Assembly (NCBI RefSeq): GCF_009649845.1
Contig: NZ_WJIE01000014.1
Location: 124,001-188,000, forward strand
DNA: 64,000 bases
Source of the DNA: Polyangium spumosum
GTDB lineage: Bacteria > Myxococcota_A > Polyangia > Polyangiales > Polyangiaceae
Reading direction: 5' to 3'
Part shown: positions 16,530 to 18,960 of the stretch, piece by piece
Position numbering within the stretch: position 1 is the first letter of the stretch
Layout: every line of letters starts with the position of its first letter
Position numbers and translations under genes: made by a program
Notes under the pieces: generated by a model
What the model saw: only the letters and a program-made list of their open reading frames with translations
Databases searched by the model: none
Told to the model about the DNA's origin: nothing

Positions 16530-17477
16530 ATGTCGCGCGTCGTCTGGTCCTCGTCCCTCGCCCTCTTGCTCGTTGGTTGTGCTGGATCGACGCCGCCGCC
16601 CGACGCGCCTCCGAATCCGAATGCGCAGGCGAGCGCCCCGCCGCCCGCGGAGGCCGCGCCGCCCCCCGCGGCGAGCGCCGCGCCCGAGGCGCCGAACAAG
16701 CCAGCGGACGTGGCCCCCGCGCCCGCGCCCGAGGCGCCGAAGGGCAGGCTCCCGCCGGCCGAGATCCAGAAGGTCGTCCGCGGCAACTTCCAGGTGATGC
16801 GGACCTGCTACGAGAAAGGCCTGCAGAAGAACCCGAGCCTCGAAGGCCGCATCGCCGTTCGTTTCGTCATCGGCACGGACGGCAAGGTCCAGAGCGCCGG
16901 CGAGGACGCGCAGGCCTTCCCCGATCCCGCCGTCGCCAGGTGCGTGCTCGACGCCTTCCAGGCCCTTCAGTTCCCGCAGCCCGAGGGCGGTATCGTCACG
17001 GTCGTGTATCCGATCCGGTTCGCGGCGAACGCGGACGATTGCAAGACGACCACGGAGGAGAAGGACGGCATTCGCACCGTCTCGCTCACCTGCGAGAAGC
17101 AATCGATGAAGGTCACGGACATGCCCGTGAAGGCCGTGGACGACAAGCTCGCGGAGGCATTCCTCACCGGATTCGAGCAGCAATCGCCCAAGATGCGCCG
17201 CACCCGCACGAAGCCGACGATCGAAGGCAAGAGCTGCTGGATGACGTCGGTCGACGGCGTGACCTGGTCGTCGATGCTGCTCGTCACGGAGGCCGTCGCC
17301 GGCCGCGCGCTCGTCGTCTCCTGCCTCGACGAGAGCCAGGGAGGCACGTCCGCGAAATGTAATACGATGGTCGCGGACATCATCAAACGTACGGTCGCCC
17401 CGCCCGTGGTGGCCACGCCCGAGGCCACGCCGAAGCGCCCGCTGCCCACGACCACGGTGACCGGCAGCGGATTCTGA
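16530..17477 (+). CDS. AgmX/PglI C-terminal-domain lipoprotein
   Basis: 315 residues. Start at MSRVVWSSSLALLLVGC, a type II lipoprotein signal with acceptor Cys 17. A Pro/Ala-rich linker runs to about residue 73. Residues about 75-162 (IQKVVRGNFQVMRTCYEKGLQ ... FPQPEGGIVTVVYPIRF) match the TonB-like AgmX/PglI C-terminal pattern seen in gliding-motility proteins, including the conserved CYE and GxIxVRF. A second domain (about 170-300) is unrecognised. Likely on the outer or inner membrane periplasmic face. The 18-bp inverted repeat described separately starts at its stop codon. Confidence 0.75.
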   Translation: MSRVVWSSSLALLLVGCAGSTPPPDAPPNPNAQASAPPPAEAAPPPAASAAPEAPNKPADVAPAPAPEAPKGRLPPAEIQKVVRGNFQVMRTCYEKGLQKNPSLEGRIAVRFVIGTDGKVQSAGEDAQAFPDPAVARCVLDAFQALQFPQPEGGIVTVVYPIRFAANADDCKTTTEEKDGIRTVSLTCEKQSMKVTDMPVKAVDDKLAEAFLTGFEQQSPKMRRTRTKPTIEGKSCWMTSVDGVTWSSMLLVTEAVAGRALVVSCLDESQGGTSAKCNTMVADIIKRTVAPPVVATPEATPKRPLPTTTVTGSGF

Positions 17478-17599
17478 GAGGGTGTTCCACAGGCTGCTGC
17501 GCGGCGCGATGCGTCGGTCGGACTCGCTCAGCGTACAGAGTACGCCTCGCTCGCCCTCCCTAGCCTCGCCCCGCTCGCGACGCCTGTGGAACACCCTCT
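17477..17599. repeat. 123-bp element bounded by 18-bp perfect inverted repeats
   Basis: AGAGGGTGTTCCACAGGC (17477-17494) is repeated in exact inverse at 17582-17599, and a small palindrome GCGTACAGAGTACGC (around 17531-17545) lies midway. The left arm overlaps the stop codon of the AgmX-type gene and the right arm ends just before the peroxiredoxin leader. It could be a long terminator, an RNA structure or a MITE-like miniature element. Confidence 0.55.
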
Positions 17600-17652
17600 G
17601 ACGGCTCTCCCGGATCTTGCCGCCTCGTCCGCGGCCCTGTACGTTCGCCCGC

Positions 17653-18216
17653 ATGCCCTCGCCGCTCCCGCGCCGCCTCTTCCTGGTCGGCGCCGCGCTG
17701 CTCGCCCTCGCCGCTGGCTGCAACTTGAAGACGCGGGGCCCTGCGCTCGCCGCCGCGACCCCGGCGCCTTCGTTTTTGCTCCCCGCGCACACGGGCGAGG
17801 CCGTCTCCCTCGCGGACCTCACGCAAAAAGGCCCCGCGGTCGTGGTGTTTTACCGCGGCCACTGGTGACTGTACTGTCGTAACCAGCTCGGGCAGCTGGC
17901 AAGCTTGAACGACAGGTTCCGCAGGCTCGGCGTGGGCCTCGCGGCGATCAGCGTCGACACCGAGGCGGAGTCCCGCGCGCTCGCCGATAAGCTCGGCGTC
18001 CGTTATCCGCTCCTGCGCGACGACGGATTGAAGACCGCGCTCGCGTACGGCGTCGCCATGCAAGGCCAGGACATCGCGGTCCCCGCGGTGTTCGTGATCC
18101 TGCCGGATGGGCGAATCTTCTTCCGGCAGGTCGGCGAGAGCATCAACGACCGGCCGAGCAACGCAGAGCTGCTCGATATCGTCGATCGCGCGCTGGTCGA
18201 ATCACGGCGCGATTGA
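17653..18216 (+). CDS. Putative selenocysteine-containing peroxiredoxin-like lipoprotein
   Basis: AhpC/TSA-type thioredoxin-fold protein read through an in-frame TGA at 17866-17868 (codon 72). The frame is open on both sides: the N-part has a type II signal (LALAAGC, Cys 23) and ends VVVFYRGHW; the C-part resumes LYCRNQLGQLASL and continues to VESRRD with all the family features (AISVDT, YPLLRDD, PAVFVILPDGRIFF). In relatives the TGA position is the first Cys of CxxC, so TGA most simply codes selenocysteine (UxxC). A SECIS-like hairpin follows directly (17874-17915). It would reduce peroxides or disulfides in the periplasm. Alternative: a nonsense mutation. Total 187 residues counting Sec. 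Its end overlaps the convergent MYXO-CTERM gene by 15 bp. Confidence 0.8.
17869..17915 (+). ncRNA. SECIS-like stem-loop downstream of TGA
   Basis: Immediately 3' of the in-frame TGA, CTGTCGT (17874-17880) pairs exactly with ACGACAG (17909-17915), and an inner stem CCAGCT (17883-17888)/AGCTGG (17894-17899) closes the loop CGGGC. The apical loop begins 20 nt after the TGA, within the range reported for bacterial SECIS elements, and contains G residues. Both stems lie inside the coding sequence, so they constrain codon choice there. Confidence 0.65.
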
Positions 18217-18960
18217 GCGGCGCCTCCGCCCCCGAAGCGCCGCGAGCAGGCCGAGGCCCACGACGACCCCCGCCGCGCCTTCTTCGCCCGTCACGGCACA
18301 ACCGCCACATCCGCTCGACGCGCGCGTGGGCGGCGGTGCGTTCGGCGGAGGCTCGCCGGGCGCGCTCGATTCCTGCGGAGCAGCCTCGTCCCGCGCCGGG
18401 GGCCGCGCGACGCCGGGCGGATCGGGCCGTTTTCCGTCGGCTGCATAGTCGAGCGTCACCTTCTGCCCGTCGTCGAGCGAATAAACCACCTGCGCGAGCC
18501 GGGCGACGAAGACCCCGGCGTCGAGCTTCTCGACCCGCACGACGTCGTGCACCCCCTTCACCGGCCAGCGCTCGGGCACGTAATGCACCGGCGAGATCCG
18601 GAGGCCCGACGAGATGAGCGTCTTTTCCTTCTCGAAGAACGCTTCGAGGTCCTCTCCCTGGAGCTTGCGCAGCGAGGACGCCTCGAAATCGGCCTTCTTC
18701 ATCGCGTAAACGACGGGGTTGACATACTTCCCCACGATCATCGGCATCTGGCCGAGCACACAGAGCTCGGGGTTGGGCGCGCCGAAGGACGTCGTGTACG
18801 GGTGCGCCAGGAACACGTGGTCGGGGAAGTTCGAGCCGTTTTCGAGAGAGAACGTGTACTCGACACGTTTCTCCCCGTCGGGGATGAGATCGGCCCGCGC
18901 CTCGCCGGCGACGAGCAGCCCGAGCGCGGCCAGGACGAGGAACGTGCGTCGCGTCTTCAT
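18202..18960 (-). CDS. Secreted protein with MYXO-CTERM-type tail
   Basis: 252 residues. Sec signal peptide (TFLVLAALGLLVAGEARA), then a domain of unknown family with DHVFLAHPY ... ELCVLGQMPMIVGKY. The end follows the MYXO-CTERM pattern: a Cys-containing turn SGCGGCAVTG, a hydrophobic helix GAAGVVVGLGLLAALRG and an Arg-rich tail RRRR, which in myxobacteria directs proteins to a surface-anchoring or sorting pathway. Its start is about 100 bp from the divergent ClpA gene. The tail Cys is the expected processing or lipidation site; the protein's own function is unknown. Confidence 0.75.
   Translation of the reverse strand: MKTRRTFLVLAALGLLVAGEARADLIPDGEKRVEYTFSLENGSNFPDHVFLAHPYTTSFGAPNPELCVLGQMPMIVGKYVNPVVYAMKKADFEASSLRKLQGEDLEAFFEKEKTLISSGLRISPVHYVPERWPVKGVHDVVRVEKLDAGVFVARLAQVVYSLDDGQKVTLDYAADGKRPDPPGVARPPARDEAAPQESSAPGEPPPNAPPPTRASSGCGGCAVTGEEGAAGVVVGLGLLAALRGRRRRSIAP

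Follow-up and report, generated by a model that had tools for sequence, protein, structure and literature searches.

The window considered here, a 64,000-nucleotide stretch of a Polyangium genome (10.8 Mb, 99.7% complete; phylum Myxococcota, order Polyangiales), carries on its forward strand, at positions 17653-18216, a gene for a predicted peroxiredoxin (Prx)-like selenoprotein of 187 residues, recognized by translation and through its homologues. The gene is read in one frame, in which the sole internal TGA is codon 72 (17866-17868), and its terminal stop is likewise a TGA (18214-18216); a preliminary description of this DNA had given the frame, its coordinates and the one in-frame TGA, and re-translation showed all of them to be exact. 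Codon 72, for which homologue codons and the selenocysteine (Sec) machinery of the genome indicate reading as Sec, lies in the motif FYRGHW-U-LYC, where it opens a CxxC-like UxxC site (U-L-Y-C), and the invariant partner in this site, Cys75 (17875-17877), falls in alignments on the Cys that is peroxidatic in peroxiredoxins. Further features on the same strand are an N-terminal signal region assigned by pattern (17653-17721), with RRLFL (Arg7-Arg8) and a lipobox-like LAAGC containing Cys23; a bacterial SECIS-type hairpin (17883-17899) assigned from conservation and folding, in which the stem CCAGCT/AGCTGG encloses the loop CGGGC (17889-17893); and Pro144 (18082-18084), which takes the position held by Arg116 in AhpE and by a Pro in ResA.

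The end of the selenoprotein gene is overlapped by 15 bases by a convergent gene (18202-18960, reverse strand), which we take to be DUF2330-like. The product of the latter has a C-terminal tail, GCGGC...GLGLLAALRGRRRR, presumably resembling a sorting signal, and a similar tail adjoins the selenoprotein gene in loci L032-L036. Just upstream of the selenoprotein gene, an imperfect palindrome of about 128 bp (17474-17601; AGAGGGTGTTCCACAGGC ... GCCTGTGGAACACCCTCT) is present in the same genome in seven near-full copies of at least 95% identity, itself included, along with fragments, which suggests a repeat of the miniature mobile or REP type. In six relatives, a search next to the gene gave just short, chance-like matches and no copy.

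Codon 72, its homologues and the selenocysteine machinery

Homologues were found in 28 of the 183 genomes searched in the order (limit, E ≤ 1e-15), and the codon aligned with codon 72 is TGA in 21 of them and a Cys codon (TGC or TGT) in seven, proportions that depend, as does any Cys-to-Sec ratio given here, on the use of a Sec member as query and on the E-value limits. TGA is found in the 20 best-scoring members, including all six of the genus, while the remaining TGA member (G076) scores below two Cys members (G180 and G172); four named Polyangium loci, which include that of P. fumosum DSM 14668 and lie on the same contigs as four of the 21, have TGA at the codon as well. The preliminary description had placed the TGA at the first Cys of a CxxC, which agrees with the seven Cys homologues, and the comparison of TGA with TGC/TGT that it had proposed as a check shows that this copy is not alone in carrying TGA. 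Five distant thioredoxin-like matches without TGA in the same genome (L022-L026) are outside these counts; a sixth match from that search, L027, is described below.

A wider sample of the phylum (377 genomes, family profile, E ≤ 1e-25) gave matches in 91 genomes and 120 rows, 93 with and 27 without a TGA inside the match by manual count. The codon itself was read in 30 of these loci, and found to be TGA in 25 and TGC in three, the other two being without the motif; nine of the TGA loci and one TGC locus overlap with the order search, so that 16 were new and brought the 21 Sec sequences to 37. In several myxococcal genomes (G484, G482, G365, G476 and others), two to four homologues contain a TGA within the matched region, which suggests an expansion of the Sec form; G484 has four with an in-frame TGA, one of them also with a TAA, and the codon itself was read in one of the four.

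In 21 pairs formed from seven sequences, the mean dN/dS is 0.25 for the 45 codons that precede the TGA and 0.32 for the 112 that follow it, and the purifying selection found before and after codon 72 bears out the initial proposal that both sides are conserved in one frame. Among the residues invariant in the 21 Sec members are F66, Y67, R68, G69, W71, residue 72, C75, Q78, L79, L82 and P144, and the family motif can be written as FYRG-x-W-U-x-[YF]-C, with Asp in place of Tyr/Phe in two of the 21.

The machinery for Sec insertion is present. A search of the same genome for selA, selB, selC and selD, which had also been proposed as a check, found all four above their curated cut-offs: tRNA-Sec (selC) with 69.7 bits against 47 and the anticodon TCA; selB (L017, 7086-9035), which adjoins tRNA-Sec, with 315.2 bits when taken with the neighbouring stretch, against 242.25; and, away from the tRNA-Sec/selB locus, selD with 390 bits and selA with 490 bits. 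Across the order, selA is found in 54 of 183 genomes, and it is distributed unevenly, in 20 of the 21 TGA genomes as compared with 34 of the 162 others (Fisher p 2e-11, relatedness ignored) and in one of the seven Cys-only genomes (G010). A tRNA-Sec match over the cut-off is found in 19 of the 21 TGA genomes and in two of the seven Cys genomes, namely G010 (70.9 bits) and G180, where the 50.4 bits are in the range of the second, lesser matches of other genomes. The search for selA gave no match in the TGA genome G143, where tRNA-Sec scores 69.4 bits, and that for tRNA-Sec gave none in the TGA genomes G082 and G116 (86% and 77% complete), both of which have selA; each of the 21 TGA genomes has one or the other.

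These results bear on whether the TGA simply ends translation, the remainder of the frame being debris of a pseudogene, a sequencing error or the tail of an ordinary stop. TGA does serve as an ordinary stop in these organisms, as it ends 15 of the 21 Sec genes, a count that also led us to discard a genome-wide reassignment of UGA, and the Sec reading is itself computational. The presence of TGA at this codon in 21 of the 28 homologues, the purifying selection downstream of it, the conserved RNA hairpin described below and the full Sec machinery already contradict such a reading, which can be given practically no weight.

The hairpin following the UGA codon

For bacterial SECIS (bSECIS) elements, the limits given in a 2026 review (PMC13188914) are a stem of 4-16 bp, a loop of 3-9 nt whose first two positions contain a G, a spacing of 16-37 nt and an energy of at most −7.5 kcal/mol. 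With a 6-bp stem, a 5-nt CGGGC loop and a spacing of 20 nt, the hairpin of the window is within this geometry; its energy is −7.4 kcal/mol for the isolated stem, 0.1 short of the limit, and −8.5 kcal/mol when 31 nt are folded with RNAfold. When geometry and energy were tested together, 32 of the 37 distinct Sec sequences passed, one of them (L077) through a different hairpin, and the window was among the five that failed. By an own version of the published limits, 127 of the 1052 TGAs of the window (12%) precede some passing hairpin. The stability of the single sequence was discarded as evidence, the window hairpin being unremarkable with respect to shuffles (z −0.12 and −0.64), and because this hairpin taken alone is ordinary the weight of the case rests on conservation. 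No Rfam family exceeded its threshold in the window, a result that says little about bacterial SECIS elements.

From the aligned sequences, the hairpin is conserved with compensatory changes. In the 37 distinct Sec sequences, whose relatedness inflates these and the other hairpin counts to some degree, pair 18:34 is CG in 20, GC in ten, UA in three, AU in one and unpaired in three, and pair 21:31 is GC in 32, GU in three and AU in two. The covariation score, the percentage of paired cells and the number of two-sided cells of the 21-sequence alignment were reached by none of 500 shuffles, while the other two of the five measures, pairs changed on both sides (75 of 500) and further pair types (194 of 500), are within chance. 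When the partner strand was slid, the percentage paired fell from 86.9 to values between 12.5 and 56.5, and a slide of −1 gave as many two-sided changes as the true register. The two-stem hairpin of the preliminary description is in this respect retained in half: its upper stem is the conserved one, whereas the lower stem, TGTCGT/ACGACA, can be read in the sequence and is not conserved. The lower stem was therefore not kept as part of the element, its 57.9% of paired cells being matched by 47 of 500 shuffles and its covariation by 93 of 500.

Codon usage points in the same direction as pairing. The Gly80 codon is GGG or GGT, and never GGC, in all 19 Sec genes of the order that have Gly there (two have Val), as compared with GGC at 183 of the 283 Gly codons elsewhere in these genes, and the Leu82 codon is CTG or TTG in 21 of 21. 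Across all 37 sequences, the triplet in the loop is GGG in 14, GGT in 13, GGC in three, GGA in three and another triplet in four, and the Gly80 bias is therefore not absolute. When the local hairpin energy is compared with that of synonymous recodings, the mean z is −1.91 for the 21 Sec genes and +0.07 for the seven Cys genes; taken singly, the value is 5% or less for ten of the 21 and 10.6% for the window. A wider stretch, from +9 to +45, gives a weak signal, with a mean z of −0.70 for Sec and +0.12 for Cys genes.

A reading of the UGA by an ordinary tRNA, for Trp or Cys, or its action as a regulated partial stop that yields an additional short product, has also to be weighed. Partial termination is common at Sec UGA codons, which speaks for such a short product. 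However, the site aligns with Cys in seven homologues, the hairpin signal found in the 21 TGA members is absent from the seven Cys members, and Trp is unsuited to the CxxC position, so that this alternative appears very improbable. By comparison of sequences, UGA at codon 72 almost certainly directs insertion of Sec. We infer that SelB itself, with Sec-tRNA (anticodon UCA), would read UGA 72 as Sec, as proposed because the G-loop hairpin follows at 20 nt, and the UGA at the end of the gene would terminate translation.

Fold, active site and relatives of the protein

The protein of the window matches PF00578 (AhpC-TSA) with 93.8 bits against a cut-off of 26, a family that all 21 Sec members match as well, and its AlphaFold model (pLDDT 87.5) has a peroxiredoxin fold. 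The best fold match is AhpE of Mycobacterium tuberculosis (1xvw_A; Z 23.5, 1.8 Å over 155 residues), and ResA is also among the top Foldseek matches. Among solved structures, ResA is the best match when the window protein alone is used as query (E 2e-10), and peroxiredoxins are best, with ResA close behind, when the family profile is used. In the alignment with AhpE, the profile segment FYRGhWCpyC is placed opposite FFPLAFTGIC, and the 'iavP' Pro opposite the Arg that is Ala in the R116A entry 4xih. Thus Arg68, Sec72 and Pro144 are at the positions of the Pro, Thr and Arg of AhpE, the last of which we take to be catalytic, and Cys75 is at that of the peroxidatic Cys; in the alignment with ResA, Pro144 falls on a Pro that is presumably the thioredoxin cis-Pro.

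The protein is accordingly similar to the AhpE/BCP (PrxQ) peroxiredoxins in its fold and in the position of the peroxidatic Cys, and differs from them at the site, where Pro, Thr and Arg are replaced. The initial designation as a peroxiredoxin holds for the fold, as modelled and matched to structures, and is not supported in the catalytic sense: a catalytic peroxiredoxin was rejected, as the PxxxTxxC(U) arrangement with its Arg was not found in the AhpE alignment. With the ResA/TlpA thiol-disulfide oxidoreductases, which are membrane-anchored and extracytoplasmic, the protein shares a CxxC-type site and the Pro at the Pro144 position; it differs from them in having Sec for the first Cys, and peroxiredoxins outrank ResA in fold and profile matches. 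In NCBIfam, the window protein scores below the cut-off of every model. The best match there is NF040769 (SelL-related redox protein), which all 21 Sec members match at E ≤ 0.001; membership fails with 52.3 bits for the window protein, as compared with a cut-off of 120.

Prx-like selenoproteins in which the TxxU motif is shifted to a thioredoxin-like UxxC were noted by Zhang and colleagues (PMC1088965), and Prx-like thiol:disulfide oxidoreductases with PF00578 and UxxC/UxxU appear in Table 1 of the 2026 review (PMC13188914). The protein described here resembles the Prx-like UxxC selenoproteins, as presented in these sources, in its PF00578 domain, in having UxxC where Sec peroxiredoxins have TxxU, in the existence of Cys homologues and in the bSECIS-type hairpin, and is unlike those listed in its Myxococcota host, in its FYRG-x-W-U-x-[YF]-C motif and in its putative lipoprotein anchor. 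By domain and motif it would join this known kind, for which the listed reference is WP_010940744.1. In titles and abstract openings, with subscription journals mostly outside the search, nothing was found on this protein or on myxobacterial selenoproteins, and the word start 'myxo' is absent from the main text of PMC13188914 and PMC12013277.

The replacement of Pro, Thr and Arg by Arg68, Sec72 and Pro144, together with the published shift from TxxU to UxxC, makes disulfide exchange likelier than peroxidase activity, and thiol-disulfide exchange is the main activity that we would favour, with some reserve, from the sequence comparisons. By analogy with ResA/thioredoxin-type oxidoreductases we infer catalysis based on Sec72, whose selenolate would attack disulfides (or oxidised thiols or peroxides), with Cys75 resolving the Sec72 intermediate as in those enzymes. 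The main rival is a functional Sec peroxidase, in which Sec72 or Cys75 of the peroxiredoxin fold would reduce hydroperoxides at the membrane. The strength of the PF00578 match, the predominance of peroxiredoxins among the top structure matches and the top profile matches to solved structures, and the retention of Cys75 in the peroxidatic position all speak for it, and because the fold search puts peroxiredoxins, AhpE in particular, first, it keeps a minor share of the probability. It is nevertheless unlikely, as the AhpE residues are replaced, with no variation at Arg68 and Pro144 among the 21 Sec members, and as PxxxTxxU is found in a different TGA gene of the same genome.

The latter gene (L027, 1546-2004, forward strand, on contig C5 of the same genome) is a candidate second selenoprotein of PrxQ/BCP-like type. 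It has FFPKAFTSG-U-TVEA, that is PxxxTxxU as in Sec peroxiredoxins, RR ahead of a TFVID strand, and a hairpin that follows the TGA.

Putative export, and significance

Of the 21 Sec homologues, 17 have a lipobox-like pattern in their upstream open frame, as do three of the seven Cys members, the starts not being fixed, and 16 of the 21 have RR-x-[FLVM] there, with a spacing that does not always fit. An exported lipoprotein is plausible from the lipobox-like pattern at Cys23 and the RR motif, with export possibly by the Tat route. The protein would then be anchored to the membrane and face the periplasm, with a peroxiredoxin-like thioredoxin fold bearing the UxxC site. Taken as a whole, the observations are best explained by a UxxC selenoprotein, read by means of SelB, probably anchored in the envelope and perhaps of thiol-disulfide type, and we regard this explanation, which draws on comparative evidence, as very probable.

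A gene that stop-codon-naive annotation would split in two becomes a well-supported selenoprotein, in a lineage, the myxobacteria, that is nearly absent from the selenoprotein literature searched (titles and abstract openings). The known principles of Sec decoding are unchanged by the finding; what it adds is that compensatory changes define the SECIS core of one family, that the Sec machinery is common in this Myxococcota order, and that the likely function of the protein moves from peroxidase towards thiol-disulfide exchange. More tentatively, the homologues may make up a subfamily of Sec oxidoreductases in myxobacteria, exported and anchored to the membrane, which has its own conserved short hairpin and in which the Sec form predominates over the Cys form, a possibility to which we give somewhat less than even weight. 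If true, these soil bacteria, mostly aerobic and often predatory, would have a selenium-based disulfide or redox-repair system in their envelope.
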